Assembly (NCBI GenBank): GCA_017551925.1
Contig: JAFZKA010000047.1
Location: 1 to 64,000, forward strand
DNA length: 64,000 nucleotides
From: Bacteroidaceae bacterium
Lineage (GTDB): Bacteria; Bacteroidota; Bacteroidia; Bacteroidales; Bacteroidaceae
Reading direction: 5' to 3'
The notes under the pieces are model-generated. The model was not told the DNA's origin and made no database searches. It worked only from the letters and a program-made list of their open reading frames with translations. This document shows, piece after piece, positions 5,127 through 55,780 of this stretch; the first letter of the stretch is position 1, and each line of letters starts with the position of its first letter. The position numbers and the translations under genes were made by a program.

Positions 5127-5392
5127 AACTTTTTTGGGTATCGGTATTAAAGCCTGCGATTTGCAGTAGCAGAACAATCAGTTTGGGGAGCATTCAGTGA
5201 CTTGGCGTTAAGCGCAAAACCTTGGGAGGATCCCGTTAAAAACGGCACTGTTCGAGGAACGTTCGACCCCATAGGGGGCGATGAGGACGAGTTTGCCGTT
5301 TAGGGTCCGGAAAGGTCTTGCGTAGCCAAGGAGCGGCTGCTCCCCAAACTGATTGTTCTGCGAAGTTTCAGATACTGATACCCAAAAAAGTT
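5127..5392 (+). repeat. Structured intergenic element, copy 1
   Basis: Long terminal inverted arms (AACTTTTTTGGGTATC at 5127 and GATACCCAAAAAAGTT-type sequence ending at 5392) enclose a perfect 23-bp inner stem (5169-5191 with 5339-5361). The core runs from GGGGAGC to GCTCCCC. Inside are GGATCCC/GGGTCC, AAACGGC/GCCGTTT and a hairpin at 5263-5281. Copies 2 and 3 share nearly the whole core sequence. The element fills the gap between the porin stop (5118) and the xylB promoter (5432-5462) and contains no plausible reading frame. It may be a transcribed structured RNA, a MITE-like element or both. Confidence 0.85.
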
Positions 5393-5397
5393 CCCAA

Positions 5398-5430
5398 AGT
5401 ACACAGAAGGAACCGTCCCTATTGTGTACT
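5398..5430. repeat. REP-like palindrome, second family
   Basis: AGTACACA at 5398-5405 and TGTGTACT at 5423-5430 form a perfect inverted repeat around GAAGGAACCGTCCCTA. The internal GGAACCGTCCC is itself partly palindromic. It differs from the GGGGACAGTCCCC family and sits between structured element copy 1 and the xylB promoter. It may act as a stem-loop in the transcript; its function is unknown. Confidence 0.6.
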
Positions 5431-5431
5431 A

Positions 5432-5462
5432 TTGCGTGTTATCTACTTTTTCAGTATATTTG
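5432..5462 (+). promoter_or_regulatory. xylB promoter (-33 TTG, -7 TATATTTG)
   Basis: TTG at 5432-5434 and TATATTTG at 5455-5462 are separated by 20 bases, matching the Bacteroidetes sigma-ABfr consensus. The start codon follows at 5503, giving a leader of roughly 35 bases. This suggests that xylB and GH8 can be transcribed independently of the GH95-porin pair. Confidence 0.65.
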
Positions 5463-5502
5463 CTGCCTAAATGCAAAATAGAACCAATTAATATATAACG
5501 GA

Positions 5503-6981
5503 ATGTACTTATTAGGTTATGACATAGGCAGCTCTTCAGTGAAGTGCAGTCTTGTAGATGCCCAGAACGGCAGTTGCGTGGCAACAGCGTTTGCCCCCAA
5601 GAGTGAAGCACCCATTAAAGCAGTCAACCCGGGATGGGCTGAACAGAACCCTGAAGACTGGTGGTCATATCTCAAAGCAGCCACCGCCGACGTACTCTCC
5701 CAGTGCAAGGTAAATACAGCCGATATCAAGGCAATAGGTATCTCATATCAGATGCACGGCCTTGTATGCGTTGACAAGAACCAGAAAGTGTTGCGCCCCG
5801 CAATCATCTGGTGTGACTCACGCGCAGTAGGCATCGGTGAAGAGGCTTTCCAGGATCTGGGCCGTTCACAGTGCCTGACACACCTGCTCAACACCCCCGG
5901 AAACTTTACCGCATCAAAGTTGGCCTGGGTAAAGCGCAACGAACCGAAAACGTTTGACAAGATTGACAAGATCATGCTCCCGGGCGACTACATTGCAATG
6001 CGTCTGACCGGTGAGATAGCAACCACAATATCAGGTCTTTCAGAGGGAATGTTCTGGGATTTCCAGACAGGCGATGTAGCAGGTTTCCTGCTTGACTACT
6101 ACGGAATACCCCGTTCATTCATACCCAAGATTGTGCCCACATTCGCCGAGCAGGGCAAACTGACCTCAGCAGCCGCCAAGGAACTTGGCCTGACTGAGGG
6201 TACACCCGTAACCTACCGTGCCGGTGACCAGCCCAACAACGCACTTTCACTCAACGTATTCGAGCCCGGTGAAATTGCATCAACCGCAGGTACCTCAGGC
6301 GTTGTTTACGGTGTAAACGGCGAGATCAGTTATGATCCCAAATCAAGAGTGAACACATTCGCTCACGTAAACCACAAGACCGGTTTCAACCGTCTGGGCA
6401 TATTGCTCTGCATCAACGGCACAGGTATTCTGAACGCATGGATGAAGCGCAACATTGTACCTGAGGGCATAGGTTATGCTGAAATGAATGACCTTGCATC
6501 ACAGGCCCCCATCGGTGCCGGCGGCGTATCAGTACTGCCTTTCGGCAACGGTGCCGAGCGCGTACTTGAGAACAAGGAGCGCGGTTGCAGTTTCAATGGT
6601 GTGAACTTTAATATTCACAACCGCTCACACCTGCTTCGCGCAGCCCAGGAGGGTATTGTATTCTCATTCAAATACGGAATTGAGATAATGGAGGATATGG
6701 GTATGCCTGTCAACAAGATACACGCAGGTAACGCCAACATGTTCCTGAGCCCGTTGTTCCGCAACACCCTGGCAGGTGTAACCGGAGCCACCATTGAACT
6801 CTATGACACCGACGGTTCAATAGGTGCAGCCAAGGGTGCAGGTATGGGTGCACATATCTACAATGACCACAACGAGGCATTCGCATCACTCCAGAAAATC
6901 CGTGTCATTGAGCCCAAGGCAGCCGATATGCCGGCTTATGACGAGGCTTACCAGCGCTGGAAATCATACGTTCAACAATAA
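5503..6981 (+). CDS. xylB: Xylulokinase (FGGY family)
   Basis: A 492-residue FGGY carbohydrate kinase that phosphorylates D-xylulose to xylulose 5-phosphate for the pentose phosphate pathway; cytoplasmic. Motifs are LLGYDIGSSSVKCSL (N-terminal phosphate-1 loop), ISYQMHGLVCVD (the QMHG sugar-binding segment characteristic of xylulokinases), PAIIWCDSRA, LPGDYIAMRLTGE, a catalytic aspartate in YRAGDQPNNA at about residue 240, STAGTSGVV, and AGNANMFLSPLFRNTLA near the C-terminus. Length is normal for the family. The ATG at 5503 is preceded by a good promoter and no upstream in-frame ATG. GH8 follows 16 bases downstream, so the two form an operon. No xylose isomerase or xylose transporter is present in the window; these must be encoded elsewhere. 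Confidence 0.93.
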   Translation: MYLLGYDIGSSSVKCSLVDAQNGSCVATAFAPKSEAPIKAVNPGWAEQNPEDWWSYLKAATADVLSQCKVNTADIKAIGISYQMHGLVCVDKNQKVLRPAIIWCDSRAVGIGEEAFQDLGRSQCLTHLLNTPGNFTASKLAWVKRNEPKTFDKIDKIMLPGDYIAMRLTGEIATTISGLSEGMFWDFQTGDVAGFLLDYYGIPRSFIPKIVPTFAEQGKLTSAAAKELGLTEGTPVTYRAGDQPNNALSLNVFEPGEIASTAGTSGVVYGVNGEISYDPKSRVNTFAHVNHKTGFNRLGILLCINGTGILNAWMKRNIVPEGIGYAEMNDLASQAPIGAGGVSVLPFGNGAERVLENKERGCSFNGVNFNIHNRSHLLRAAQEGIVFSFKYGIEIMEDMGMPVNKIHAGNANMFLSPLFRNTLAGVTGATIELYDTDGSIGAAKGAGMGAHIYNDHNEAFASLQKIRVIEPKAADMPAYDEAYQRWKSYVQQ

Positions 6982-6997
6982 AGCCAATTAACTGACA

Positions 6998-8281: not shown

Positions 8282-8304
8282 TTTCCAGTTGTAAAAATAC
8301 TTAC

Positions 8305-8351
8305 AGAGCGAGGCATTCTCCCAAGAAACGCGGGAACGCCTCGCTCTTTTT
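8305..8351 (+). terminator. Intrinsic terminator after GH8
   Basis: AGAGCGAGGC and GCCTCGCTCT form a 10-bp stem around a 23-base loop, followed by TTTTTC. It ends the xylB-GH8 transcript before the separate fasciclin gene. Confidence 0.85.
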
Positions 8352-8466
8352 CACACCTGTTTTAACGCAAAAAACCGCCCTACACGCATTATTATTAAAT
8401 AAAATTGGTTATCTTTACGCGCCGAACCAACTAGATAGCGACTAAAATAATTAATAACCAACTAAT

Positions 8467-10620: not shown

Positions 10621-10636
10621 TTTAACAGTATAATCC

Positions 10637-10687: not shown

Positions 10688-13225
10688 TTATTCCATATAT
10701 ATCTTTTCAGTGCTGATGGTGCCGTCCTCATAAATATACTTTACGATATTAAGACCTTTATAAGGATCGCTTGAGGGAACGCCTGAGGTATTATAATAGA
10801 TGACATCCTTTATCTCAACCATGTCACGCTCATAAGATTCAACACCGCTTACGCCGCCTATAGCCTCAATGTAAAATGATGAGACCGTGGCATCGGGGGT
10901 ATAATTTACAGTACTGCCCCATAAAGTGGATTTGCGCTCCACACCGTTAACGGTTTCAGTAAGGTTCCATCCCAGAATCTCATATCCGCTCTTTTTATGA
11001 CTGCCTTCAAAACGGTATTCCCTGTCAGTGTAAAGAGAACCGTTGAACTTGGCTTCAGTAAGAGGTACACCGTTTATAGATACAATGTAATACTTGCAAT
11101 CCATCTTCTTGACATTGGTATTTACCTTTGCCGGAATGATATTACCAAGTCCGAAACGCTCCTGGAGTTGTGAATACATGGCCGGTATTCTGGCTGCACC
11201 CCACTTTTTCATTGACTCAACCTCATTGTTCCAGTTTTTGCTCATACCGTCCTTAAAATAGGGCTGCTCTCCGGCCAACTGGTCATGGGCCCAATTGATC
11301 CAGTAGTTCATATTGGTTGAGGTCAGAAAATCACCCATATAGACTGAAAGCCTGTCAATGAACATCTCCCTGTAATCAGGAACATAGTTTATCAGGTTTC
11401 TGAAAGTGGCGGTACTTATTGCAGTATTGTGGTTTTTGTCACTGGTTATGTTATTCGGCTCGCGCAGAACCCACTTGAGGTTCTCACCGGTGGCAGGACA
11501 GAAACCGTAAAGGTTAAAGGCGCGGTCCACATCCTTGAGAATCCATCTCCAACGCCCCTCAGGGGTATTGGGTTTCCAAACAACAATATTGTTTGACGGG
11601 AAATCAGTATTGCCAAAAAAGATATGGCATATCATTGCATTTGTATATTCAACCACGTCCATACGTTCCTCATACTCAGCAAGTGTATGGTGGTTTATGG
11701 AATCTATGCACCAGTCAAAGAACTCGGCATAGTCATCATAATTACCCTCCTTAAGTTCTCCTCTTGGCTGCTTTGATGTAAGTTCTACAAGCGTAATGTC
11801 TTCAAGGCCGTTATAATGGGTCCAGATATTGTCTTCATTGCCACGCTCACGAATATTTATCAGGCCCTTGTATTCTGTATTGATATAGTATATTGCAGGC
11901 TGGTATCCCTGCCAGTCAACATCTACATAGGAACCTATCATCAGTTGAGCCACACCGTCACGCATATAGGAGTATCCGTTGTCGTTTCCGCTGGCACGCA
12001 GAGCCAGTGAAGGAACACCCGTTATACCCTTACGCGTATTTTTCCAGAAATTGTAATTAAAGGTATCCGAGCCGTCAAACCTGCTGTTTGCATAGACAAT
12101 GACAGACTTGAGGGTATTGATTCTGGTATATGCACCTCCTACACGAATCTCACATGACCTTGTCATTCTGGGCTCACCACCAGACTCGTTGTAATAATGG
12201 AAAAAGGCCGGACGGCGCCAGTTGTGTATGAGAGAACGGTCATGGGCCTCAGAATCATTTTTGGGCTGATTCTCAAAAATACCGTACTCCGCATTGTACA
12301 GGTCCTCAGGGTTGACAGAAAGAGCAACCGTAGGAATTGACAGCTTACGGCCATGCAGAATATACAGATGCGGGATTGCAGGCGGTGTAATATAACCCTC
12401 CTTAAAGAGCGAGGCCTTGATCTGCGTATTAGTCCTGATAAAAAGGCCCTTATATGCAGACTGTTCAAGTATCGGAGAGTCAAGTGTAGGTTCTGTTCCG
12501 TTCAAAGTATAGTGACATACCACGTCATCAGGTACAGGATCTCCGTTGGAACATATCTCAGTTCCTTCAGTCATATATCTGACTTGCAGAGCTGACCCGT
12601 ACTGCCCCTCCTGCTGTTGGGCGTCAGTGCTGATATAACCTGTAGGCGTAATATACGGCTGCGGCAGGATGGCTATTGCCAGGCCCCCTGTATTGGGCTC
12701 TCCCTTTGTTACCTTAAGTTCATAGCCAAGAGAGTCTGCACCGTCAGAGATACGTCCGTAGGCCACGTCAGTAACCACCATTGCAGGTAGTTCAACTGAG
12801 TCTGCCTTTTCCTTTCCGGGCTCAAAAAGATATAAATAACTGACAGTATCAGTAGTTATCCTGAAATCAGCGTGAACCTCAGTCTTGCCGTCAACCGTGA
12901 CAACGGTATCTGATTTGTCACAATAGACAACAAAATAACCCTTGGCAGGTATTTCAACATCAGGCAGTTCATAGCCTTTCTTGTACTTTGACTTTTTGCC
13001 TATACGCCAATCCTTGAGTGAAACAGCCTCCTGCCCGGGATTATACAATTCAACCCATCCGTCAGGATATTCCATAAGCAAATCCAGTTCTCTTGTTCCG
13101 TGTGTTGACTGCATAACCTCATTAATTACGAGTTTATGCCAACAACTGTCAGGAGTGGCGTTACACACATTCCATAAGCCTGAAACAGCCGATGCAAACA
13201 CTGCAGCAGCAATCTTGAAATTCAT
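10688..13225 (-). CDS. Secreted CotH-family protein with lamin-tail domain and T9SS-like C-terminus
   Basis: About 845 residues from the ATG at 13225, where the signal peptide starts; the longer frame from 13264 adds 13 residues before it. Order of parts: signal peptide; lamin-tail domain (LVINEVMQSTHG, DGWVELYNPGQEAVSLKDW); a chitobiase/HEX-type segment (YTLNGTEPTLDSP); then the CotH kinase-like core. Core motifs are RSCEIRVGGAYTR, LALRASGNDNGYSYMRD, GLINIRERGNED, HIFFGNTDFPSNNIVVW and WRWILKDVDRAFNLYG. CotH in spore formers is an atypical protein kinase; the role in Bacteroidales is unknown. The end (VIYYNTSGVP to KGLNIVKYIYEDG and a final KIYME) resembles a type IX secretion sorting domain and matches the ends of the two giant proteins at 18287 and 22552. 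It is separated from the sigma operon by a terminator and has its own -7 motif. Confidence 0.82.
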   Translation of the reverse strand: MNFKIAAAVFASAVSGLWNVCNATPDSCWHKLVINEVMQSTHGTRELDLLMEYPDGWVELYNPGQEAVSLKDWRIGKKSKYKKGYELPDVEIPAKGYFVVYCDKSDTVVTVDGKTEVHADFRITTDTVSYLYLFEPGKEKADSVELPAMVVTDVAYGRISDGADSLGYELKVTKGEPNTGGLAIAILPQPYITPTGYISTDAQQQEGQYGSALQVRYMTEGTEICSNGDPVPDDVVCHYTLNGTEPTLDSPILEQSAYKGLFIRTNTQIKASLFKEGYITPPAIPHLYILHGRKLSIPTVALSVNPEDLYNAEYGIFENQPKNDSEAHDRSLIHNWRRPAFFHYYNESGGEPRMTRSCEIRVGGAYTRINTLKSVIVYANSRFDGSDTFNYNFWKNTRKGITGVPSLALRASGNDNGYSYMRDGVAQLMIGSYVDVDWQGYQPAIYYINTEYKGLINIRERGNEDNIWTHYNGLEDITLVELTSKQPRGELKEGNYDDYAEFFDWCIDSINHHTLAEYEERMDVVEYTNAMICHIFFGNTDFPSNNIVVWKPNTPEGRWRWILKDVDRAFNLYGFCPATGENLKWVLREPNNITSDKNHNTAISTATFRNLINYVPDYREMFIDRLSVYMGDFLTSTNMNYWINWAHDQLAGEQPYFKDGMSKNWNNEVESMKKWGAARIPAMYSQLQERFGLGNIIPAKVNTNVKKMDCKYYIVSINGVPLTEAKFNGSLYTDREYRFEGSHKKSGYEILGWNLTETVNGVERKSTLWGSTVNYTPDATVSSFYIEAIGGVSGVESYERDMVEIKDVIYYNTSGVPSSDPYKGLNIVKYIYEDGTISTEKIYME

Positions 13226-13251
13226 ATTTTGTCTGTTTATTAAAGAATGTC

Positions 13252-13259
13252 CAAAGTTA
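13252..13259 (-). promoter_or_regulatory. Candidate -7 element for the CotH gene
   Basis: On the minus strand TAACTTTG, an exact TAnnTTTG match, lies about 27 bases upstream of the ATG at 13225. No ideal -33 is visible. Confidence 0.5.
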
Positions 13260-13285
13260 GGCAAAAAACGGGCAACAGGGGCAAA

Positions 13286-18286: not shown

Positions 18287-21200
18287 TCACTTGATCAGTT
18301 CAATCTCAGAAACAGCCTCGCCGTTGCTCAGGATAGAACGCTTGATAACGATCTCACCTGCCTTGGGAGCCTCAATCTGGATACCATCCAGGCTGAAGAA
18401 CTGAACACCGATTACATCAGCCTCAGGAGCATCAGCGAACAGGATCAACTCATCAACCTTAGCCTGCTGCTCTCTGATAAGTGCAGCATAGTTTGCTGTT
18501 GAATCAGCATCGGTAATAATCAGACCAGCACCTGATACATCAACATGACCTGAACCTGAAGCACCTGTGATGGTGTAGGTAATCTTAAGGTCACTGCCTG
18601 CTGATACCCATACATTCTCCTGACTGAAGGTCTTAGGTGATGTGCTCTTTGAACCCTTAAGTTCAAGGCTTACTGAATCAGTAACAAAATTGAACTTAGA
18701 GTTAGAAAGGTTGTTCTGGTACATATCAACATTTACAGTGTAAATACCTGCGGGCAGGCCCTTAACTGTGGTACTTGCTGAACCGGTGGTGTTATTCTCA
18801 AAGTGGATACCGGCAATGAACTCATGACCGTCATTCTCCCAATCCATAGCTGCTCTACCAGGATAGCAAGAACCTGATGAGCCATAAGAACCGGCGAATG
18901 TGATAGTCCACTCAGGAATTACAGTAGTGTTGTTGCTTGCGCTTACAACCCACTTGCCGCTGCTGTTCTTGCGCATGTCAACACCGGCCTGAGCCTTGGT
19001 TGCCATAAAGTAGTTAGGAATCAGGACTGATACGTCAAGACCATCGGCGATTGTGTCAGACTTAGCGGCAAGAGCCTTGTAAAGCTGGAGGATAGAAGCC
19101 TCACGGAGTACATTCTCAAGAGCCGGATCACTTGACATCAGATTGTCAACGGTATTCTTAATCTCATCCTTTCTGTCACCAAAGTCATAACCCATGCCAA
19201 CTGCAAAGTTGTACAACTCCTTGATCTGTCTTGTCTGAGCTTCAATAGTTTCAGGCTTGAAGATAAAGTTGTTGTAGCACTCACACAGAGTCTTGTAATA
19301 AGCGGTAAGGGCATCGTCAGAATCATTGATTACATCAACTGCAGCCATAACGTCCTCATAAGTACGCTGCATTGTTACAAACTCATCAAAGAACTTGAAT
19401 ACAGATTTGTCAATGGAATCCTTTATCTGTGCGGCCTTCTCATCAAACTTGCCATTCAATTCCACGCGAGCATCAAGAGCCTTGATTTCATCCTCATAGA
19501 GTTTAACTTCAGCGGCAATCTCAGCATTGGTCTTTTCTGAGCAATCCCAGAACAAATTGTTGTCAAGGTGATCAGAAAGAGTAATGTAAGCAGCAAGATC
19601 CTGATATATAACCTTGTTCTCATCTTCAAACTCATCAATCTTGTTATATGCCTTTTCCTCTGTAGCATAGAACAGGTCAACGGTATCAACGCGCAACTGC
19701 ATCTTGTCAATCTCAGCCTGAACTGCGGCTGCGGCAGCTAAGTAAGCGCTAGGCTTGGTATCCTCCCAGTTCTCATATGAATAGAAATCAGCAATCTCTG
19801 TCAGTTTATCAAACTGAACACCCAGATACTGATCCTCTGTCTCAAGTTCCTCAAGTTTTTCAAGAGCAGCATTCACAGTCTTGTTCAACTTGGATACATA
19901 CGGGAATGAAAGACTACGCAATTGCTGTATCTCAAAATCACTCATAAGGATTCCGTCGGTACCATTCTTCTTTACGACCCATTCAATTATATAGTTGCCA
20001 TCCTGCGGTACTGTAAAGTTGAAAGAGAATGACTCTACTCCACTAGGCCAGTTTCCATAAGGCTCACTATACACCTGAATGTCAGTATAAACAGACCTTA
20101 CTGTCGGAGCGAATGTTCCGATAACAATCTTATTTTCATCACTTATTTTCTGTATATCACTAGCGTTTTCAACGTCATAAGGATAAATATAGATGGTGGT
20201 CGTTTTTGCAGTTTCCCAATGCGTAGCACTGAAACTGAGCACATAGGATTCGCCAGCCTTAAGGGCAATAGGATTGTTCTTATCTAAACCGCAAGCCAAG
20301 TGACCGTTATCTGTACCCTCGGAACGACCGGAGAAATAATAACCTGCATCAAAACCGGATTTAGGATTGGTCCAGAACAGACGGCTCTTTGTGCTCTTAT
20401 TCTTGCCATCACCTACAGTAAACTTATCCTTTCCGTTCCAAACAGCTGTACCAACAGGCACAGACTGGGTTTCAGTACTGTTTTCTCTAAATTTTGACTC
20501 AAATACAGCTGCAAGTTCAGGATTATGATCAAAGTCACCAAAACCAAGACTTATAGTTGCATTCTTACCATAGTCAGTACCCTCACCCTTGATGTTCACA
20601 AACTCAAATGTGTAGTCGCCATCAAGGTCACCATTGGCGATATCGGCATCACTACGTACATAGGTGGTGGTTGAGTCTGTTGATTCGCTGATCTTCCAGA
20701 TTTCCTTGACACCTGACTTGGTAACACGCAGCCAACCTAATTTTGAAGTTTCACCTAAATCATCAAACTCAAGTTTTCTGGTAAATTTTACAGTAATTGA
20801 GTTGATAGGCTCAAGTCCGAATGAGCCATTCTCATACGGAGAAGAAATAAACTTAGGAGGCAAATTCTTAAGTGAATATACACCCTTGTCAATATTGGGG
20901 TTAGGAGTTGAAAGCTCATTGGTAAAGTCATGAACCTTCTTGCCGGCCTTAATCCAGTCAACATCAAGAGCGGTGGGGAACAACTTGCCGTTATAGTTCA
21001 GGCGAAGGGCCTCATCATCAGGATTGAAGAAAGATACACGTACTGAGTCATATACACTGAACAGACTCGGAGTAACCTTACCGGTGTTGGGATCCGTATA
21101 AGGCTTGGTCCACATGTACATGTAGCCGTCATCATGATACTCGGCTGAATTGATATCAACCTTTGTCCAGGCGTTTGACTTTTTACGGTAGCCCCATACC

Positions 21201-22336
21201 TCAAAATACTGACCGTCAAGTTCAATGGCTGCAATACCGGTCTCCGCCTCCGCATTCTTGGCCAGTTCCTTAAGGTTGGTCTCATAACCAAAGTCAACAC
21301 GGATCATATCCTTGTGGTGCTCAACACCACCAATCCATGACTTGGTGAGTGACATATTGTCAAGCAGGAATTCAGTACTGTCTGATGAGAATGACAGACG
21401 TACAAAGAACTTGTCAGGCTGATTGATGCAGGTCAGAGTATCACCGGCCTTAAGAGTCTTGCCTGCAGCAGCGAGTTCCTCATCAGAGGGACGCCAGTTC
21501 CAGTCATTGTACCAATAGTAACCGTGACGATATACATAACCGTCAGCAATTGAGTCATTCAGGTAATAGGTCATGTATGTAAACTTCTGCCACTCACCGG
21601 TAAATTCAGATTCTTCAAACTCAAATCTGTTATTGTACTGATAATTGTCGGCATCACTTACAAGACCCATTGAGAAAGGCTTCTCTGAGTTGTAGTAACC
21701 GCGCATGATGTCAGCATAGAAATAAGGAGCAGTATTAGCCTTTGGAGTAACCTTCATGTATAATGTCAAACGGTATGAAGACTGATCTTCAATGTTCAAG
21801 CCACGTACAAACAGGTTTCTGCGATAGTTAGCAACCTTGCCTGAACTATAGGTATCTGCACCAGTTGCATCGGCTGATGTGTATCTGAAATAATACTTTC
21901 CGCCACTTTCACCATACTCAGCAAATGCAGCATTACGATCCTGGTCCTGACCGCCGTCAAATTCCAGACCGTAATCCTCATTGGCATAAATGGCTTTTGC
22001 CTTATCATTCTTGTTGTTTGAGGTAACAACACCGTTCTTAAGAGGAATGATACTGTCAGTTCTTACCATGAATACCTCATAGTCTTTAGAACCGTCATAA
22101 ATGTTGGCACTGCTGACAGTACCTGTTGCAATCTTGTTGAAATAGGTAATTTCCTTGATTGTGTCAACAGCAGTGTTACACCACAAATCCCAAGCCTCAT
22201 CAGGATCAGTTCCGTCTGGAACCTCAAAGTTCTGATTGAAGATTACCTTAGGATCGCCGGGGTAACGGACCAGATCCTGGGATACCAAAGGCATTGCAGC
22301 CAATAGCGCTCCCGCAAATAAGTAGAATTTCTTCAT
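18287..22336 (-). CDS. Giant secreted multidomain protein, paralogue 1, with T9SS-like C-terminal motif
   Basis: 1349 residues with a signal peptide (MKKFYLFAGALLAAMPLVSQ). I do not recognise a named family. Visible parts: an N-terminal beta-rich region (~25-340) with paired aromatic motifs; an Ig-like region (~340-640) with the conserved HDFTNELSTPNPNIDKGVYS and LPPKFISSPYENGSFGL; a long acidic helical region (~850-1130) rich in E, K, A and L that may be coiled coil; a jelly-roll-like segment (~1150-1300, GIHFENNTTGSASTTVKGLP); and a C-terminus reading VQFFSLDGIQIEAPKAGEIV then a basic tail. The end resembles a type IX secretion sorting signal. It is clearly paralogous to the next upstream gene. 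Location between SusC/D genes and GH43 enzymes suggests a surface glycan-binding role. Confidence 0.7.
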   Translation of the reverse strand: MKKFYLFAGALLAAMPLVSQDLVRYPGDPKVIFNQNFEVPDGTDPDEAWDLWCNTAVDTIKEITYFNKIATGTVSSANIYDGSKDYEVFMVRTDSIIPLKNGVVTSNNKNDKAKAIYANEDYGLEFDGGQDQDRNAAFAEYGESGGKYYFRYTSADATGADTYSSGKVANYRRNLFVRGLNIEDQSSYRLTLYMKVTPKANTAPYFYADIMRGYYNSEKPFSMGLVSDADNYQYNNRFEFEESEFTGEWQKFTYMTYYLNDSIADGYVYRHGYYWYNDWNWRPSDEELAAAGKTLKAGDTLTCINQPDKFFVRLSFSSDSTEFLLDNMSLTKSWIGGVEHHKDMIRVDFGYETNLKELAKNAEAETGIAAIELDGQYFEVWGYRKKSNAWTKVDINSAEYHDDGYMYMWTKPYTDPNTGKVTPSLFSVYDSVRVSFFNPDDEALRLNYNGKLFPTALDVDWIKAGKKVHDFTNELSTPNPNIDKGVYSLKNLPPKFISSPYENGSFGLEPINSITVKFTRKLEFDDLGETSKLGWLRVTKSGVKEIWKISESTDSTTTYVRSDADIANGDLDGDYTFEFVNIKGEGTDYGKNATISLGFGDFDHNPELAAVFESKFRENSTETQSVPVGTAVWNGKDKFTVGDGKNKSTKSRLFWTNPKSGFDAGYYFSGRSEGTDNGHLACGLDKNNPIALKAGESYVLSFSATHWETAKTTTIYIYPYDVENASDIQKISDENKIVIGTFAPTVRSVYTDIQVYSEPYGNWPSGVESFSFNFTVPQDGNYIIEWVVKKNGTDGILMSDFEIQQLRSLSFPYVSKLNKTVNAALEKLEELETEDQYLGVQFDKLTEIADFYSYENWEDTKPSAYLAAAAAVQAEIDKMQLRVDTVDLFYATEEKAYNKIDEFEDENKVIYQDLAAYITLSDHLDNNLFWDCSEKTNAEIAAEVKLYEDEIKALDARVELNGKFDEKAAQIKDSIDKSVFKFFDEFVTMQRTYEDVMAAVDVINDSDDALTAYYKTLCECYNNFIFKPETIEAQTRQIKELYNFAVGMGYDFGDRKDEIKNTVDNLMSSDPALENVLREASILQLYKALAAKSDTIADGLDVSVLIPNYFMATKAQAGVDMRKNSSGKWVVSASNNTTVIPEWTITFAGSYGSSGSCYPGRAAMDWENDGHEFIAGIHFENNTTGSASTTVKGLPAGIYTVNVDMYQNNLSNSKFNFVTDSVSLELKGSKSTSPKTFSQENVWVSAGSDLKITYTITGASGSGHVDVSGAGLIITDADSTANYAALIREQQAKVDELILFADAPEADVIGVQFFSLDGIQIEAPKAGEIVIKRSILSNGEAVSEIELIK

Positions 22337-22425
22337 AAATACAGTTATTAAAAAGGTTAATAATATAAATAGGATTATTTCAATTCTAGGGAATAAACCT
22401 GTTATCTACTATATATGGACAAACC

Positions 22426-22433
22426 CAAAGTTA
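22426..22433 (-). promoter_or_regulatory. Candidate -7 element for giant paralogue 1
   Basis: Minus-strand TAACTTTG, an exact TAnnTTTG match, about 90 bases upstream of the ATG at 22336 and downstream of the hairpin at 22499-22526. Confidence 0.45.
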
Positions 22434-22498
22434 AACTATTATAGTACACATTATATATTCAATTAACATTTATTAACTGATTTATGATTAAACCAAGA

Positions 22499-22526
22499 CA
22501 GGCGGACTGCTCTTGCAATCCGCCTG
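22499..22526 (-). terminator. Hairpin after giant paralogue 2
   Basis: CAGGCGGA and TCCGCCTG form an 8-bp stem with a 12-base loop, 25 bases beyond the stop at 22552. The T-run on the minus strand is weak (TGTCTTGGTTT), so termination may be partial. Confidence 0.55.
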
Positions 22527-22551
22527 CCTATTATAGGATAGCTATTTTTTG

Positions 22552-25500
22552 TTATTTGATAATAACAGTACTAGCCTCACTCTTACCGTTGATGGTAACT
22601 ATTCTGATCAGGATCTGGCCGGGCTGAGGAGCGGGAACCAGGATACCGTCAAGAGTAGTGTACTCAACCTTAACCTGAGCAGCCTCATAGCTGTCAACGA
22701 ATGAGATGAGTTCCTCAAGAACCTTCTGCTCATCGGCAGCAGCCTTTTCATAATCAAAGCCGGCAAGAGGCTCAAGCAGAGTCATAGCAAAGTTATCGAT
22801 CATAGCCCATGAGTTAACATTTGCCATGTCAATAGCGAGCTTAACGCTGCTACCATCAGCAACTACAACTGAGTCAATCCAGAGGTTAGCCTCTTCTGGA
22901 CGTGGATGTGTATCAGAACCGATGTTGGTAGGAGCAAGAACTGTGTAAACAGAGTCTGCAGTGGTAACAATGAACTTGTGCTTGTTGTTACCTGCGTCAA
23001 CGCTTACGTTGAAACCAACACCAATCTTGTAAACACCGGCAGGCAGAGCCTCAACAGTCTGTGACATGCTTACAAATGCATTCCAGTCCATAGCAAGATA
23101 TGCATCAAAGATCGGAGCCTTGTTCTCATCCCAAGCAAGAGCCTCAGAACCAATGTGTACATTGTTGCCGTTAGGATTAACCAACCAGCCCGGGAATATA
23201 TCCTCACTCTCGCCCTTCTTAGCTTTCCAGCGATCATGCGGCTCACCCCACTGGTAGTAGTACTTGTCAACGCCGTCAAGAGGCAGTTCTGTATAGAGGT
23301 TGAAGTTGCGGATAAAGCCTGACAGATCAAGTTCGTCACTCAGACCGTCGCTTTCAGCAATCTCCTTATAGATAGCAACCTTGATGGCGCTCTTCATTAC
23401 CTCAACAAGTGCAAGGTCATCAAATACGGCACCTGCAACTCTTGAATTGATTTCATCGGCAGCATCGCCAAAGTCTGCATTGACCTTCTCAGCAAGAGCA
23501 GCCAGTGACTTGATACGTACTGTTGTGGCAGCAGCGGCAGCAATATAAGCATTGTATTCGTTGACTGCACCATTCAGAGCAGCAATAACCTGGGTGAGTT
23601 CATCATCTGACAGAGTTGCAAGATCATCAACAACAGCATAAGCAGCATCAATTTGTTCAAGAATATTTGCATACTCATCAATTGAAGTAGCAGCATTAGG
23701 ATCATTGGCAACAGCATCAGCCTTCTCTACAGCCTTGAAGAAATCAAGTGACAGAGTTCTGCGTGCATCCATTGCCTTACCGGCAGCCTCAAACTGAGCC
23801 TGAACAGCCTTAATGGAATCATCGGTCTTATCAAAGCACTCAAAGTCTGCATAGTCAGCAAGAATATCCTCCATAGCTGCATATGCTTCGGTCTGATCAT
23901 AATCTACACCATCCAGAGCAACAAGAGAATCACTATAAGCCTCTACCTTCTCTTCAAGAGCAGCATATGCACCCCACATTGTATCAACTACCTTAATACG
24001 GGCCTTAAGGTTGCTGTTTGCTTTGTCAAGGCTGTCTGTTACAGTATTGTAACGGCTGGGCTTGGTATCACTGAAGTCAACATAAGCGTCATAAACAGCC
24101 TGTGTAGCCTCATAAACATCACCGGAATACTGCTCCTCGTTATCTGCAACCAAATCAAAGTTTGCTTCAAGTGAAGTAAGAGCATTGTTCAACTTGCTGA
24201 CATAAGGATAACCAAGTGTAAAGTTGGACTTGATGCTCAGGTACCACAGGATCTTACCACCCTTGTGGCCACCACCCCATGAACCTTCCTTAGGAAGTGT
24301 AAGAGCTAATTTATAAGTACCAACACTCAAGTTGGCTGAAATGGAATACTCCTTAACTTCGTCAACCTGTCCGCCTTCATCAACTTTGATACCGCTGCCA
24401 CCATATGAACCTGTTGCAATTTCCTTGCCGGCTGCATCATAAATGAATATGTCCATGTTGGCATCATCATTCCATGAACTCTTATTGCAACCTGTTATAC
24501 CAAATGAGATAGCAGTTGCACCAGCCTCGGCAACATCAAATGTATAATACAACTTGCAGCATTTGCTTGCATTGTTCTCGGCGCCTGTGCTTACACCATA
24601 GAGACCCCACATGAGACCCTTTGTATAAGCGCCGGTGAATGATTTGATCTTAGCAGCACATCTATCACCGGTAATTCCGGTAATACCGAGAGTCTTAAGG
24701 TCAGTTGTGAAATCACCGTCCTCATAACTTGCAAAGTCAAGAGAAGCAACATCGGTTGCCATTACGGTCTCACCGAATGAGTAGTCAATAGAGGTATTCT
24801 GAGCATAGTCAGTACCAAAACCCTGAATGTTAGCCAGAGTGAATGAGTAGTCACCCTCAAGAGCACCGTTCTTGGTTATGTCAGCCTGCTGGCGGGTGAA
24901 TACGAGAACTGAGTCAGCCTCATCATCAGGATTCTGAGCTGAAGGAATCCAGAACTCCTTGACACCCTCCTTCTCTACCATAAGCAGAGCATACTTTGAA
25001 GTACTGCCTGATGCGGGATCGATCAGAACCGGTCTTGAGAAATCAAACTTAACAGAAGTCAGGTCACCAGGAAGCTGGAATGAACCCTTTTCATACTGCA
25101 AACCTGTAAGTACAGGAGGCAGGTTCTTCATTGAATAAACGCCCTTGCCGATGTTGGGGTTAGGAGTAGCGATTTCATTTGTAAAGTCATGAACCTTCTT
25201 GCCGTCCTTAATCCATATTGTATCAAGAGCCATCGGGAACTGACTGCCGGTGTAGTTAAGACGCAGAGCCTTCTCATCAGGATTTCTGAAACTTACAAGA
25301 ATAGAATCATAAACATCAAACTTGTTTACGGTATATGATGAGCCGTTAATGGTCGGCTTTGACCACATATACATATAGCCGTCATCATGATACTCAGCAG
25401 AGTTGATAGGAATCTTATACCACTTGCCGGTTCTAGCACGGTAACCCACAACATCAAAGTACTCACCAGCAAGTTCAATGGCATTTACAAAGCTGTTCTT

Positions 25501-26610
25501 ACCAGCCTCAATGGCAAGATCCTTAAGGTTTGTATCATAACCAAAGTCAACGCGGATCATATCATTGTGATATTCAACACCGCCAATCCATGATTTGGTA
25601 AGAGAGATGTTATCAACTGAGAATATTGTGCTGTCTGATGCAAATGACAGACGAACAAAGAACTTGTCAGGCTGCTTTACGTGCTTGAGTGAATCAGTTG
25701 CACCCAGGGTAACACCTGCAGCGGCAAGAGCTTCGTCAGACGGACGGAAAGCCCACTCTGAACCACCTGCCCACCAGTAAGCGGTATAGCAGAAAGCGTC
25801 AGCGATTGAGTCATTCAGGTAGTAGGTCATAAATGTAACCTTCTCCCACTTATCATACTCAAAGTCCTCTTTCTTGTACTCAAAAGTCTTGTTGTACTGA
25901 TAAGTCTTGCTGTCATCAACATAACCCATTGAGAAAGGCTTCTCTGAATGGAAATAACCACGCATTACGTCAGCATAGAAAGTAGGCTTGGTATTACCTT
26001 TAGCTTTAGCCTTTACATAAAGTGTCAAACGATAAGAAGAGTTTTTCTCAACATTCAGACCACGTACAAAAAGGTTACGACGATAGTTAGGAACTATACC
26101 ATCACTATAATTTCCGGCACCCTTTGCATTGTCTGATGTGTACTCAAAGTAATATTTACCACCGTTCTCACCATATGCAGCGAAAGCCTCATTACGCTCC
26201 TGATCCAGACCCTCGTCATAGACCAAAGTGTAATCATCAGCATCGTAATAACCACCCTTGATATCACCGGCATCATCGGTAGTCATTACACCGTTCTTCA
26301 TTAAGATCAGTGAATCCTTGACAAAAGTTGTATTCCACTTAGCAGCATCATCTGTGTAGATCTTAAGACTGCTCTCAGAACCTACGTGATTGATGTAAGT
26401 AAGCTGATAGATGGTGTCAACAGCGGTTGTTGACCACTGTTCCCAAGCAGCATCGGCATCAAGACCGTCGGTTGCTTCAAACTTTTGTGTAAACATGACC
26501 TTAGCATCGTCAGAAGTACGAACGACTGTCGTCTCTTCCACCTGTGCCATAACGCTGACAGGTAATGCCAACATTATGAGTCCAGTCAAAAATAAGTCTC
26601 GTTTTTTCAT
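22552..26610 (-). CDS. Giant secreted multidomain protein, paralogue 2, with T9SS-like C-terminal motif
   Basis: 1352 residues with a signal peptide ending near VMAQ. It shares its architecture and many long identical stretches with the adjacent 1349-residue protein: YRRNLFVRGLN, FFVRLSF, KSWIGGVE, DMIRVDFGY, SAEYHDDGYMYMW and KKVHDFTNE. Its middle domain differs (DRCAAKIKSFTGAYTKGLMW and GKILWYLSIKSNF), suggesting exchange of a binding module. Residues ~830-1090 are alanine/aspartate/glutamate-rich helices. The end reads VEYTTLDGILVPAPQPGQIL then a short basic tail, a type IX sorting-like motif. Its likely role is surface binding or scaffolding for the polysaccharide, by position only. No enzymatic motif is recognised. 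It starts 129 bases after the SusD stop. Confidence 0.7.
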   Translation of the reverse strand: MKKRDLFLTGLIMLALPVSVMAQVEETTVVRTSDDAKVMFTQKFEATDGLDADAAWEQWSTTAVDTIYQLTYINHVGSESSLKIYTDDAAKWNTTFVKDSLILMKNGVMTTDDAGDIKGGYYDADDYTLVYDEGLDQERNEAFAAYGENGGKYYFEYTSDNAKGAGNYSDGIVPNYRRNLFVRGLNVEKNSSYRLTLYVKAKAKGNTKPTFYADVMRGYFHSEKPFSMGYVDDSKTYQYNKTFEYKKEDFEYDKWEKVTFMTYYLNDSIADAFCYTAYWWAGGSEWAFRPSDEALAAAGVTLGATDSLKHVKQPDKFFVRLSFASDSTIFSVDNISLTKSWIGGVEYHNDMIRVDFGYDTNLKDLAIEAGKNSFVNAIELAGEYFDVVGYRARTGKWYKIPINSAEYHDDGYMYMWSKPTINGSSYTVNKFDVYDSILVSFRNPDEKALRLNYTGSQFPMALDTIWIKDGKKVHDFTNEIATPNPNIGKGVYSMKNLPPVLTGLQYEKGSFQLPGDLTSVKFDFSRPVLIDPASGSTSKYALLMVEKEGVKEFWIPSAQNPDDEADSVLVFTRQQADITKNGALEGDYSFTLANIQGFGTDYAQNTSIDYSFGETVMATDVASLDFASYEDGDFTTDLKTLGITGITGDRCAAKIKSFTGAYTKGLMWGLYGVSTGAENNASKCCKLYYTFDVAEAGATAISFGITGCNKSSWNDDANMDIFIYDAAGKEIATGSYGGSGIKVDEGGQVDEVKEYSISANLSVGTYKLALTLPKEGSWGGGHKGGKILWYLSIKSNFTLGYPYVSKLNNALTSLEANFDLVADNEEQYSGDVYEATQAVYDAYVDFSDTKPSRYNTVTDSLDKANSNLKARIKVVDTMWGAYAALEEKVEAYSDSLVALDGVDYDQTEAYAAMEDILADYADFECFDKTDDSIKAVQAQFEAAGKAMDARRTLSLDFFKAVEKADAVANDPNAATSIDEYANILEQIDAAYAVVDDLATLSDDELTQVIAALNGAVNEYNAYIAAAAATTVRIKSLAALAEKVNADFGDAADEINSRVAGAVFDDLALVEVMKSAIKVAIYKEIAESDGLSDELDLSGFIRNFNLYTELPLDGVDKYYYQWGEPHDRWKAKKGESEDIFPGWLVNPNGNNVHIGSEALAWDENKAPIFDAYLAMDWNAFVSMSQTVEALPAGVYKIGVGFNVSVDAGNNKHKFIVTTADSVYTVLAPTNIGSDTHPRPEEANLWIDSVVVADGSSVKLAIDMANVNSWAMIDNFAMTLLEPLAGFDYEKAAADEQKVLEELISFVDSYEAAQVKVEYTTLDGILVPAPQPGQILIRIVTINGKSEASTVIIK

Positions 26611-44995: not shown

Positions 44996-45192
44996 AAGCC
45001 GTAGTATAAGATTTCAGGAGTATTTGCGGAGGGCGTTAAGCGGAGAGCCCTGGAGATGCCGGATAAGACATCACTTGTTTGACGACGAATAGACACCGAA
45101 GGTGGCTATGATGGAGGAGTTTGATGTTTAGGCATCGTAGGGGTTCGGAGTAGCCCGGAGGAACCTACTCCTGAAATCTTATACTACGGCTT
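44996..45192 (+). repeat. Structured intergenic element, copy 4 (divergent)
   Basis: A perfect 27-base inverted repeat (44996-45022 with 45166-45192) encloses a core that aligns with copies 1-3 at GGCGTTAAGCG, CACCGAAGGTG, GGAGTTTG and GTTTAGG. Most stem sequences differ, yet the same pairings form: GATGCC/GGCATC, GACATC/GATGTT and a hairpin at 45089-45109. The right arm covers the last codons and stop of the tatD-like gene (45179). The other end stops just upstream of the tyrS promoter. There is no reading frame inside. Confidence 0.75.
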
Positions 45193-48581: not shown

Positions 48582-48582
48582 C

Positions 48583-50059: not shown

Positions 50060-50064
50060 CATAT

Positions 50065-50325
50065 CTTTTGGGGTATCAGTATTACTGTCCCCGTTTGCAG
50101 AAGCAGAACTGTCAGTTTGGGGAGCATTCAGTGACTTGGCGTGAAGCGCAAGACCTTGGGAGGATCCCGTTAAAAACGGCACTGTCCGAGGAACGTTCGA
50201 CCCCGTAGGGGGCGATAAGGACGAGTTTGCCGTTTAGGGTCCGGAAAGGTCTTGCGTAGCCAAGGAGCGGCTGCTCCCCAAACTGATAGTTCTGCGTTGT
50301 TTCAGATACTGATACCCCAAAAAGT
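50065..50325 (+). repeat. Structured intergenic element, copy 2
   Basis: Outer arms (CTTTTGGGGTATCAGTAT near 50065 and its complement ending near 50325) enclose a 23-bp inner stem (50103-50125 with 50273-50295, one G/U). The core has GGATCCC (50162)/GGGTCC (50237), AAACGGC (50174)/GCCGTTT (50229), GTCC (50184)/GGAC (50219) and a hairpin at 50197-50215. It lies exactly between the yifB stop (50326) and the ahcY promoter (50059), on the opposite strand sense to both genes. Confidence 0.85.
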
Positions 50326-51864
50326 TCACTCCCCCCAAGAGCCGCGATCAAGGCTGCGATACCCGATAGCCTCAGCAATATGCTGCGGAGTAATGTTAGC
50401 AGAGCATTCCATATCAGCAATCGTGCGCGCAACCTTAAGTATGCGGTCATATGCACGGGCTGACAGATTCAGCCGGTTCATGGCCTCACCCAGAATCCTT
50501 ATGGCCGAAGGTTCTGCCTGAGCATATCTGCCAAGCAGGCGCGAATCCATCTGAGCATTGCAATATATGCCCTTTTCATCGGCAAATCTGGCCGCCTGAA
50601 TGCCGCGGGCCGCAATGACACGTTCACGTATTGAAGAACTGTGCTCACCGCTCTGACCTGACGACATATCATCAAAACCCACCGGCTGAATCTCACATTG
50701 TATGTCAAAGCGGTCCATAAGCGGCCCTGACACCCTGCCCAGATAGCGCTCAATGATGGCAGGAGTACAATGACACTCTTTGGTGGGATGATTGTAGTAT
50801 CCGCAAGGGCAGGGATTCATTGAAGCCACCAGCATGAATGAGGCCGGATACTCAACCCTGTATTTTGCCCTTGAAATCACAATTGTCCTGTCCTCAAGAG
50901 GCTGTCTGAGCACCTCAAGGGCAGACCTTGTGAATTCCGGCAGTTCATCAAGATAGAGCACGCCGTTATGGGCAAGCGATATTTCACCGGGCTGCGCATT
51001 TGCACCGCCTCCTGTCAGTGCCACATTTGTAATGGTGTGGTGAGGATGCCGGAAAGGGCGTTCGGTTATGAGAGCAGATCCATGTCCCGTAAATCCGGCC
51101 ACGGAATGTATTCGGGTGGTCTCAATGCTCTCCTCCTTGGTCAGAGGCGGCAGAATTGAAGAGAGCGCGCGAGCCATCATTGATTTTCCGCTTCCGGGCG
51201 GACCGATCATAATCAGATTGTGACCACCGCTCGCGGCCACCTCAAGGGCACGTTTTACAGCCACCTGGCCTTTGACATCTGCAAAATCAGCATAAGACTG
51301 CGTAATGCCCGGCTCAAAAGCAACATCGGAACGTTCTGTTACGCCTATGTGACCGGGAGCATCATTCAAAAGGTCAACGACCTCACGTATGGTACTTGCC
51401 CCATAAACCTCAATGCCCTCTATAACAGCAGCCTCAGGTGCATTCTGGATTGGCAGGATTATTCCCTTGAAACCCTCACTACGGGCGCGTATGGCCATTG
51501 ACAGCGCGCCCTTGACAGGCTGCAGGGTGCCGTCCAGACTCAGTTCGCCCATTATCACATAATCATTCAGCAGGTCAGCCCTGAGTTGGCCCACCGATGC
51601 CATTATCCCTATGGCCAGCGGCAAATCATACGCCGCCCCCTCCTTTCGTATGTCAGCAGGAGCCATATTGATTATAATCTGGCATGAAGGAAACTTGTAG
51701 CCGTTCACCTGAAAAGCCGAAACTATTCTCTCATGGCTCTCCTTGACGGCACTGTCAGGCAATCCCACAAGAAAGAATCTGATACCGCGCGATGTACTCG
51801 CCTCAATTGTCACGATGTATGCGTCTATCCCCTGGACAGCCGCACCGAAAACCTTGATAAGCAT
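50326..51864 (-). CDS. YifB/ComM-family Mg-chelatase-like AAA+ ATPase
   Basis: 512 residues. An N-terminal Lon-like domain (~1-170, VGLPDSAVKESHERI and GELSLDGTLQPVKGAL) is followed by the AAA+ core with Walker A GPPGSGKSMMARAL, Walker B GVLYLDELPEF, and the zinc-like segment MNPCPCGYYNHPTKEC. The C-terminal Mg_chelatase_C helical domain ends with SANITPQHIAEAIGYRSLDR. In naturally transformable bacteria ComM is a helicase for branch migration; a similar recombination role is likely here. An exact -7 motif (51915-51908) precedes it. Confidence 0.95.
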   Translation of the reverse strand: MLIKVFGAAVQGIDAYIVTIEASTSRGIRFFLVGLPDSAVKESHERIVSAFQVNGYKFPSCQIIINMAPADIRKEGAAYDLPLAIGIMASVGQLRADLLNDYVIMGELSLDGTLQPVKGALSMAIRARSEGFKGIILPIQNAPEAAVIEGIEVYGASTIREVVDLLNDAPGHIGVTERSDVAFEPGITQSYADFADVKGQVAVKRALEVAASGGHNLIMIGPPGSGKSMMARALSSILPPLTKEESIETTRIHSVAGFTGHGSALITERPFRHPHHTITNVALTGGGANAQPGEISLAHNGVLYLDELPEFTRSALEVLRQPLEDRTIVISRAKYRVEYPASFMLVASMNPCPCGYYNHPTKECHCTPAIIERYLGRVSGPLMDRFDIQCEIQPVGFDDMSSGQSGEHSSSIRERVIAARGIQAARFADEKGIYCNAQMDSRLLGRYAQAEPSAIRILGEAMNRLNLSARAYDRILKVARTIADMECSANITPQHIAEAIGYRSLDRGSWGE

Positions 51865-51907
51865 GATTATATATGGTATTAAAAATGGTGTTGTTCATGT
51901 CAGCATT

Positions 51908-51915
51908 CAAATATA
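51908..51915 (-). promoter_or_regulatory. Candidate -7 element for yifB
   Basis: Minus-strand TATATTTG, an exact TAnnTTTG match, 43 bases upstream of the ATG at 51864 and just past the stop of the upstream lipoprotein gene (51923). Confidence 0.5.
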
Positions 51916-51922
51916 ACTGATT

Positions 51923-52999: not shown

Positions 53000-53007
53000 A
53001 CCAGATG

Positions 53008-54801: not shown

Positions 54802-55117
54802 ATTGTTATTAAATTATCCTTTCCTAATCCGTATTCCATCCGGTTGGATGCTCGCCGTTTTTCGGCTCGGTTATTTTTTGGTTTTCTTGGCCCGATGGGC
54901 CTTGAAAACCGCTAACTGGAAACTTATCTGCGTATTAGGAACAACCTTTTTTTAGTTTCCTTCTGGAAACGCGCTTCGTTCCATTTCATTTCACTACGCT
55001 TGCCGGCCTTCCAGGCCGGGTAAAACCAAACCATTTTTCGCTTCGCTTTAATGGTATGGTTTTACTGGGTGCAGAGGGGAACCTTCTGCTGGTTTGGAGT
55101 TTCCGGGTGCAAAGTTA
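54802..55117 (-). promoter_or_regulatory. Long structured leader and promoter of typA
   Basis: An exact -7 motif, TAACTTTG (55117-55110, minus), would give a leader of roughly 300 bases. In it are an AATGGT-type hairpin (about 55021-55063, TAAAACCA paired with TGGTTTTA), CCGGCC/GGCCGG (about 55002-55018), GTTTCC/GGAAAC (about 54953-54970), GGTTTTC..GGCCC/GGGCC..GAAAACC (54880-54910) and CATCC/GGATG (54837-54850). A purine-rich stretch precedes the ATG. No reading frame of note. It may be a regulatory 5' leader. Confidence 0.5.
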
Positions 55118-55140
55118 CGGGAATTTTGTCAGATTTTTCA

Positions 55141-55170
55141 TTGTCAGTTAAAAAAGAAGATATATCTTTG
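55141..55170 (+). promoter_or_regulatory. rpsO promoter (-33 TTG, -7 TATCTTTG)
   Basis: TTG at 55141-55143 and TATCTTTG at 55163-55170, 19 bases apart, directly upstream of rpsO (ATG at 55208). Confidence 0.75.
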
Positions 55171-55207
55171 CGCCCGCTAAACGAGTTTTCACATAATTTT
55201 TAAGAAA

Positions 55208-55477
55208 ATGTATTTAGACAAAGAGAAAAAACAAGAAATCTTTGGACAATACGGAAAGTCCAACACGGATACTGGCTCACCTGAAGCCCAGATAGCCTTG
55301 TTCTCATACCGTATTTCCCATTTGACGGAACATCTTAAGGAGAACCGTAAGGATTATAGCACTGAAAGGGCACTGACCCAGTTGGTAGGTAAGCGCAGAA
55401 GACTGCTCAACTACCTCAAGGAGAGAGACATTGAGCGCTACCGCGCCATCGTTAAGGCTCTCGGCTTGCGCAAGTAA
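55208..55477 (+). CDS. rpsO: 30S ribosomal protein S15
   Basis: 89 residues, the standard length. Characteristic segments are [38 protein letters not shown] and the end [13 protein letters not shown]. It binds 16S rRNA helices in the small-subunit platform. It is a single-gene transcript with a canonical promoter and a strong terminator. Confidence 0.99.
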
Positions 55478-55492
55478 GGCTAAACGTAAAGG

Positions 55493-55527
55493 AAAAGGGG
55501 TTGATTCCAAGAGTCAACCCCTTTTTA
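55493..55527 (+). terminator. rpsO terminator
   Basis: AAAAGGGGTTGA and TCAACCCCTTTT form a 12-bp stem with a 9-base loop, followed by TATTTTT. Confidence 0.9.
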
Positions 55528-55549
55528 TTTTTCCTAAACAGGATGTTTT

Positions 55550-55780
55550 TCCCATTTGCAGTAGCAGAACTGTCGGTTTGGGGAGCATTCAGTGACTTGG
55601 CGTTAAGCGCAAGACCTTGGGAGGATCCCGTTAAAAACGGCGCTGTCCGAGGAACGTTGCACACCGAAGGTGGGCAAAAGGACGAGTTCGCCGTTTAGGG
55701 TCCGGAAAGGTGTTGCGTAGCCAAGGAGCGGCTGCTCCCCAAACTGACAGTTCTGCGGAGTTTCCAATACTGATACAACG
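55550..55780 (+). repeat. Structured intergenic element, copy 3
   Basis: The inner 23-base stem (55564-55586 with 55734-55756) and core match copies 1 and 2. The apical hairpin (55657-55677) has changed on both sides (TTGC, CACC with GGTG, GCAA) while keeping the A/G mismatch, as in copy 4. The outer left arm seen in copies 1 and 2 (GTATCAGTAT) is absent here, but its right counterpart persists to about 55777. It lies between the rpsO terminator and metG. Confidence 0.85.

Follow-up and report, generated by a model that had tools for sequence, protein, structure and literature searches.

The 64,000-nt stretch of Bacteroidaceae DNA analysed here (the window; contig JAFZKA010000047.1 of genome G000) carries four copies of a real, conserved and structured repeat that belongs to a dispersed family, which we refer to as the rod element. 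The predicted fold of its plus strand is a nested rod, interrupted by two CGUUAA/UAG internal loops and topped by a conserved apical motif; the loops are conserved in sequence, while the stems have changed almost wholly and kept only their pairing. In our view the rod element is probably a phylum-spanning, protein-free, non-autonomous dispersed element that a putative trans-acting factor recognises by its fold and moves.

Four copies of the rod element in the window

The earlier note, a first reading of the letters of the window, had placed four elements in it, and both a second reading of the letters and two covariance models (R1 and R2) bear this out. Each model matched four places in the window and no more, always on the plus strand, with expectation values (E) from 1.2e-28 to 4.5e-41; these values are rough owing to a short calibration, and copies 2–4 had served in the training of R1 and copies 3–4 in that of R2, copy 1 being a close paralogue. 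Copy 1 (5127–5393, plus strand; model match 5182–5348) comprises an outer inverted repeat, arms and the rod core. Copy 2 (44996–45192, plus strand; model match 45012–45176) is divergent and combines the same rod core with outer arms of its own, AAGCCGTAGTATAAGATTTCAGGAG. Copies 3 (50063–50327; model match 50116–50282) and 4 (55550–55785; model match 55577–55743) also lie on the plus strand. A near-identical core had been described for three copies, and an ungapped repeat finder grouped three accordingly (234 nt; 95% and 87% identity to the first). The shared plus orientation holds inside the window and fails beyond it, the next copy on the contig (67386–67617) lying on the minus strand. The 23-base stem said to close the element is present, and the outer inverted repeat GAACTTTTTGGGGTATC lies beyond it at both ends of copies 1 and 3; copy 4 shows just a degenerate version of its right half, and copy 2 lacks it altogether.

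The conserved parts can be placed on the plus strand of copy 3. Internal loop A sets CGUGAAG (50140–50146; CGUUAAG in other copies) opposite UAG (50257–50259), and internal loop B sets CGUUAA (50168–50173) opposite UAG (50235–50237). The apical domain (50183–50227) reads UGUYYGA, followed by a hairpin that is variable yet paired and then by GGACGAGUU. Paired changes set the apical stem of copy 4 (TCGACCCC..GGGGGCGA) apart from that of copies 1 and 3 (TGCACACC..GGTGGGCA).

Covariation and loop conservation

Relative to shuffled sequence, the plus strand of copy 3 (50065–50325) folded with a z-score of -12.3 and that of the divergent copy 2 with one of -9.9. Two complementary blocks had been thought to occur in an order that cannot nest, which the computed fold does not bear out: CUUGGC/GCCAAG pairs outside GCAAGACC/GGUCUUGC, the whole fold is nested, and a pseudoknot or switch between GCAAGACC/GGTCTTGC and CCTTGG/CCAAGG is not needed.

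Covariation was scored in a sequence-only alignment (A2) of 27 genus copies: G000 contributed 14 of the roughly 40 found, sister genomes the other 13, and the near-duplicates L035 and L039 and the partial copies L047 and L048 were omitted. Of its 44 consensus pairs, 22 changed on both sides within the genus, giving 114 double-change cells, as compared with a mean of 30 in shuffles and 0–22 when pairing partners were slid. A wider alignment (A3), whose rows include a weak match (L108, E 0.17) and two partial matches, showed double changes at 41/44 pairs and pairing in 94.1% of cells; A3 and the still larger A4 (82 matches) were fitted to the model structure, so that their pair counts lean towards it. 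Covariation is strong both within the genus and in the wider set.

The pairing also points to one strand. In the core, the plus strand showed G-U in 101 cells and A-C in 7, and once pairs whose commonest state is G-U were set aside the counts were 32 versus 7. For the core, the plus strand is therefore the folding strand, as RNA or as single-stranded DNA. In A4, 14 of the 69 unpaired columns were at least 90% one base, against 3 of the 82 paired ones. By eye, the apex reads UGUYUGA, a hairpin and GAGUU. At least one CGUUAA-like string was present in 77/82 matches and two or more in just 54/82, so one of the two loops has often varied. Conserved loops joined by freely changing stems are what we would expect of a nucleic acid that a loop-contacting factor reads.

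At what similar flanks suggest is one locus in two species (L036 in G005, L041 in G008), the rods are near-identical and the apical domain carries several simultaneous paired differences, as if exchanged between copies.

Copies within the genome

A search of G000 with R1 found at least 49 element copies, and a DNA search found 67 matching places, arm fragments counted. Among 24 G000 copies, core identity to the nearest copy was 0.91–0.98 (median 0.95), whereas flanks 100–350 nt away had a median identity of 0.63 and a maximum of 0.64, 0.63 being the floor that we assumed for unrelated DNA under lenient gapped alignment. Because cores are alike and flanks unrelated, the copies must have multiplied as units and not through duplication of their neighbourhoods. 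In G214, a genome of another family, elements stand in tandem in L072 (218 nt apart) and also in L068 and L079.

Ends, modules and adjoining repeats

The outer inverted repeat of copies 1 and 3, termed TIR-A, occurs at 49 sites in G000 with three mismatches allowed, versus 2 for a control. In the window it marks the left (5128–5147, plus strand) and right (5372–5391, minus strand) ends of copy 1, with one mismatch each, and the left (50063–50082, plus strand; two mismatches) and right (50306–50325, minus strand) ends of copy 3. TIR-A thus provides the terminal inverted repeats expected of a miniature inverted-repeat transposable element (MITE); other lineages have different arms. In G000, TIR-A also flanks a different structured interior, core B, at C8:11979–12236 (L150) and C49:27871–28124 (L170) and, partly deleted, at C2:22486–22667 (L162) and C4:18822–19003 (L163); one of the core B motifs was searched for in the window and gave no match. 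A single near-empty TIR-A shell, a closed hairpin, was found at C42:15365–15424, a form that would fit slippage deletion between CTGC repeats. Judged from the spacing of TIR-A ends, no gene-sized interior was seen in the G000 draft.

A second, short palindromic repeat with the core AGGGACGGTTCCTT and variable stems often adjoins the element or brackets it in inverted pairs. It lies just beyond copy 1 in the window (5407–5420, minus strand; one match, 0.01 expected) and near elements in L004, L006, L007, L010, L011, L014, L020, L021 and L030, and it stands inverted on both sides of the element in L007, L021, L150 and L162.

Outside the genus, 3' hairpins were analysed in the 66 of 77 rows that are distinct and have full flanks. 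A perfect hairpin of at least 7 bp followed the rod in 53/66 rows, compared with 13/66 upstream and 16/330 in shuffled sequence, and a run of at least five T within 22 nt came after the rod in 30/66, before it in 7/66 and in 13/330 shuffles. The hairpin loop was complementary to the rod end over at least 5 nt in 19 of the 53 (35/530 for shuffled tails), for example CTTGAC/GTCAAG, CTTGAT/ATCAAG and CTTGAA/TTCAAG. By eye, T runs are missing immediately after the rod in the aligned G000 copies, and in other families the rod core bears different outer ends. These lineage-specific hairpins and ends indicate that the terminal parts vary between lineages while the rod persists. Capture of the arms from the landing site was rejected for one lineage, in which copy 2 and the copy in L264 share diverged, still-paired arms.

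Distribution across Bacteroidota

Scanning relatives with a covariance model, as had been suggested, yielded matches that extend to other families and other classes within the phylum. Within the genus, R1 found the element in 30/37 genomes, G000 included. Across the order it was present in at least 8/393 genomes with R1 and at least 30/393 with R2, and in a sample of the phylum in at least 16/395; seven candidates per genome were scored in these order and phylum searches, making the counts lower bounds. Eight of the 30 order positives, among them G000, are known to have given R2 a training sequence and 22 are not so known, and in the phylum sample only G000 is; this status was judged by genome handle, several training loci coming from named contigs that lack a known handle. 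The 15 other phylum-sample positives comprise 2 of the same family, 1 of the same order, 4 of the same class and 8 that share only the phylum.

An exact pattern of the apical motif, run against one genome per species (84,980 species), matched 42 stretches, all with titles belonging to Bacteroidota (Bacteroidales, Bacteroidetes, Bacteroidaceae, Prevotellaceae, Rikenellaceae and Cryptobacteroides), many of them from ruminants. We name the phylum as Bacteroidota from these titles; the pattern is narrow and is no proof of absence from other phyla. Searches with blastn of a window copy against phage and plasmid collections, and of a distant copy against plasmids, gave no match. In IMG/VR viral contigs, the minimal apical motif CTGTYTGAGCGAAGCGAGTTC was present in two (L285 and L286) and the long motif in none.

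Genomic setting

Rough gene calls (open reading frames of at least 90 amino acids) for 43 copies gave a convergent gene pair around 14, a tandem pair around 21 and a divergent pair around 8. Copies near contig ends were dropped from this count, a few entries are the same locus in two species, and at least one of the eight divergent calls is wrong: window copy 4 was miscalled because its upstream reading frame, at 89 amino acids, falls under the limit. Copy 3 is flanked by a Mg-chelatase-like gene on one side and an adenosylhomocysteinase gene on the other, both on the minus strand.

One locus shows presence and absence of the element. G021 and G022 carry it between convergent stop codons; in G019, whose flanks match those of G021 at 96.3% and 95.1% identity, a 34-nt terminator-like hairpin, GAAAAAAGGGGACGGTTGAACCGCCCCCTTTTTT, takes its place. 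Other species matched mostly one side of this locus and were left out.

Elsewhere in the window, two adjoining reading frames of about 1350 amino acids each (18287–26610) are 72–88% alike in DNA blocks, and the one that was scanned had no Pfam match. A TonB-plug protein is encoded at 28753–31929 and a CotH kinase protein with a lamin-tail domain at 10688–13264.

Search for a moving partner

In the 4 and 7 loci in which genes were identified by eye, we recognised none carried within the element or between paired copies, and no protein that adjoins the element consistently. The Y1 transposase model PF01797 matched in 23/37 genus genomes and in 6/10 carriers elsewhere. It gave no match in G000, which is 97% complete and holds the most copies, nor in the carriers G325, G214, G288 and G244. 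The element was found in 19 of the 23 genus genomes with a PF01797 match and in 11 of the 14 without one, so no association shows. Nor did R2 find the element at any of 46 PF01797 loci (of 68 places), searched over about 1.5 kb on each side; R1, run on 20 of the 46, gave one negligible match (13 bits, E 0.19). A Y1 transposase (TnpAREP/RAYT) was rejected as a general partner, given the lack of a PF01797 match in G000 and of an element by R2 at the 46 loci examined.

A resident RVT_1 reverse transcriptase was likewise rejected as a general partner, since RVT_1 matched in 3/10 carriers and gave no match in the other 7, G000 included. The TnpB-type zinc ribbon PF07282 matched in 0/10 element-bearing genomes.

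Relation to known families

A covariance search against Rfam 15 covering the window and 46 loci (45 with members of the family and one empty shell) found no known family overlapping the element, in agreement with the first reading. Thresholds were the gathering score for the window, E<=5 for 6 loci, E<=1 for 20 and the gathering score for 20 (among them the empty shell). Outside the elements, chance-level matches to FAM13A-AS1_2 and AsrC appeared in L020 and L021, respectively. Flavo-1 RNA (RF01705), like the rod element a structured RNA motif of Bacteroidetes, is a different family by covariance model: one of the 46 loci has a Flavo-1 match, which does not overlap the element. That match (L243:1158–1249, minus strand, 61 bits) is found some 250 nt downstream of the element, on the same strand. 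In Flavobacterium psychrophilum, Flavo-1 hits have been reported in either sense or antisense orientation to transcribed regions, without a clear function (PMC9723704).

In kind, the rod element is nearest to structured dispersed repeats and would behave as a mobile repeat of that sort. ERIC/IRU, BOX and Correia elements are comparable repeats of narrow host range. An example close in kind is bcr1, a stem-loop family of 147–167 bp in 12–31 copies, whose original paper, as cited in the same source, is titled as describing a B. cereus group-specific repeat with mobile element characteristics (PMC2267715). Like bcr1, the rod element is short, intergenic, protein-free and repeated, with a predicted conserved secondary structure, and its multi-copy intergenic occurrence and compensatory changes are those by which a bcr1-like repeat is recognised. 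Compared by description only, bcr1 has a narrow host range, whereas the rod element crosses families and classes and keeps its loop motifs. What is new is conservation across a phylum through its loops, with no partner found.

Repetitive extragenic palindromic (REP) sequences and their paired form, REPINs, are also dispersed, palindromic, protein-free and intergenic, and occur in Bacteroidetes; the second short palindrome described above flanks several rod copies. REPs measure 20–40 bp (PMC3733652), whereas the rod element measures about 130–330 nt. TnpAREP genes of the Bacteroidetes subclass 2.6 reportedly have atypical secondary structures on their flanks, further copies of which occur at other places in the genome, and this subclass is reported to lack the GT[AG]G foot (PMC6006769). 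Beside a Y1 gene, where REP copies would be expected, no rod element was found by R2 at the 46 loci examined. Subclass 2.6 is the nearest system within the phylum, yet the partner test described above failed.

Protein-free repeats with inverted ends are shared by the rod element and by the MITEs of Porphyromonas gingivalis, itself a member of the Bacteroidales. In the latter (MITE239, MITE464/PgRS, MITE700 and BrickBuilt) the ends match those of resident IS5-family insertion sequences (PMC4596501); by description, the rod element differs in that TIR-A ends in G000 were not seen to enclose an interior of gene size. The listings searched do not describe the rod family, and an earlier entry is possible among the unnamed palindromic Bacteroidetes candidates of one source (PMC8040213).

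Discussion

The earlier note had inferred a mobile or once-mobile element whose transcript is a folded RNA. This view is supported in so far as the plus strand is a folded nucleic acid, most simply an RNA, with strong covariation and no Rfam counterpart. We think it more likely than not that the folded strand works at the RNA level rather than solely as single-stranded DNA. In the mechanism that we propose, the plus strand would be transcribed and active as RNA, and the conserved loops would be docking sites for a trans-acting protein, of the host or of a parasite, that recognises the fold. Such recognition would allow copying into intergenic sites without an enzyme of the element's own, and at these sites the element may replace a 3'-end hairpin in its role. 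Movement in trans by a factor reading the fold is, as judged from the sequences, a probable but not a secure part of this scheme.

Several observations weigh against it. The minus strand of copy 3 folds well too (z -10.9), as expected of a long palindrome, the outer arm of the G000 copies shows weak strand asymmetry (G-U 5 versus A-C 2), and a single-stranded DNA intermediate would give a strand asymmetry identical to that of an RNA. No trans-acting factor was identified among the models searched (PF01797, RVT_1 and PF07282). Orientation relative to the upstream gene showed no clear bias (27 with and 16 against, n=43), and no replication-strand bias was seen by local GC skew, a crude measure over flanks of 2–3 kb (13/29 positive). 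At the presence/absence locus the whole intergenic stretch is replaced, which is not a clean insertion and makes gain and loss indistinguishable; the more distant G000 carries the element after the same gene. By eye, there was no target-site duplication in the flanks or at this locus.

A plain DNA-level MITE, whose palindrome serves a transposase as substrate or stays perfect through template switching and whose RNA plays no part, would account for the many TIR-A sites, also around core B and the near-empty hairpin, for the position of 35/43 copies between convergent or tandem genes by the rough calls, and for the slight strand asymmetry of the outer arm. We nevertheless consider it rather unlikely, because the internal loop sequence is kept across the phylum and the arms are not, the core favours G-U over A-C on one strand, and in other families the rod core occurs, by eye, with different outer ends. 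The earlier suggestion of a MITE with RNA structure is close, but no target-site duplication was seen by eye and, judged from the spacing of TIR-A ends in the G000 draft, no autonomous partner. The preponderance of convergent and tandem settings would equally suit a domesticated 3'-end element, one that acts downstream of genes, mainly by terminating transcription (bidirectionally) or stabilising RNA, and whose dispersal is secondary, as would the terminator-like hairpin of G019 and the excess of T runs after the rod outside the genus. A terminator, however, needs no conserved internal loops; window copy 4 comes after a separate terminator-like hairpin, orientation is not clearly preferred, and by eye no T run immediately follows the rod in the aligned G000 copies. 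Such an element is, in our judgement, quite unlikely as the primary explanation.

A strand-specific fold would suit single-stranded DNA as well, and a large REP-like substrate of a Y1 transposase could draw on the subclass 2.6 genes with their atypical flanking structures (PMC6006769) and on the presence of PF01797 in most genus genomes and in 6/10 other carriers. The absence of PF01797 matches from the copy-richest genome, G000, and from four further carriers, the similar occurrence of the element in genus genomes with and without a match, and its absence by R2 from all 46 loci leave this very unlikely. The orphan guide RNA (HEARO/omega-RNA) offered by the first reading fares worse still. A guide of the HEARO/IscB, TnpB omega-RNA or IS110 bridge type, or a group II intron relic, would share the long structured RNA, palindromic ends and mobile setting of the rod element, yet no Rfam family matched (Rfam may not cover all TnpB guide RNAs) and no guide-like unpaired variable segment was apparent by eye. 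The guide-RNA reading was set aside on the absent Rfam match and zinc ribbon, and the group II intron or retroelement relic on the former and on the absence of RVT_1 from most carriers; no search was aimed at IS110, IscB or DDE transposases. We hold this whole class of explanations to be extremely improbable.

A bolder form of the RNA-level reading would make the family a selfish RNA lineage resembling short interspersed elements (SINEs), in which the rod RNA is the replicating form, the CGUUAA/UAG loops are read by a widespread unrecognised enzyme and the terminal modules are swapped. That enzyme would belong neither to the resident RVT_1 reverse transcriptases nor to the Y1 transposases, and the element would have been inherited and amplified across the phylum. 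This proposal is speculative, and we think it unlikely.

We favour the non-autonomous element read by its fold and moved in trans. A predicted structured RNA that some gut Bacteroidales carry in tens of copies, and that can be followed across the phylum, lacks an Rfam family, which leaves RNA annotation with a sizeable gap. With conserved loops set between stems that may change freely, the family lends itself to a clean decision on whether the dispersed repeats of bacteria are selfish DNA or act at the level of RNA. Should the copying factor be found, it may prove to be a new means of moving small sequences within Bacteroidota.

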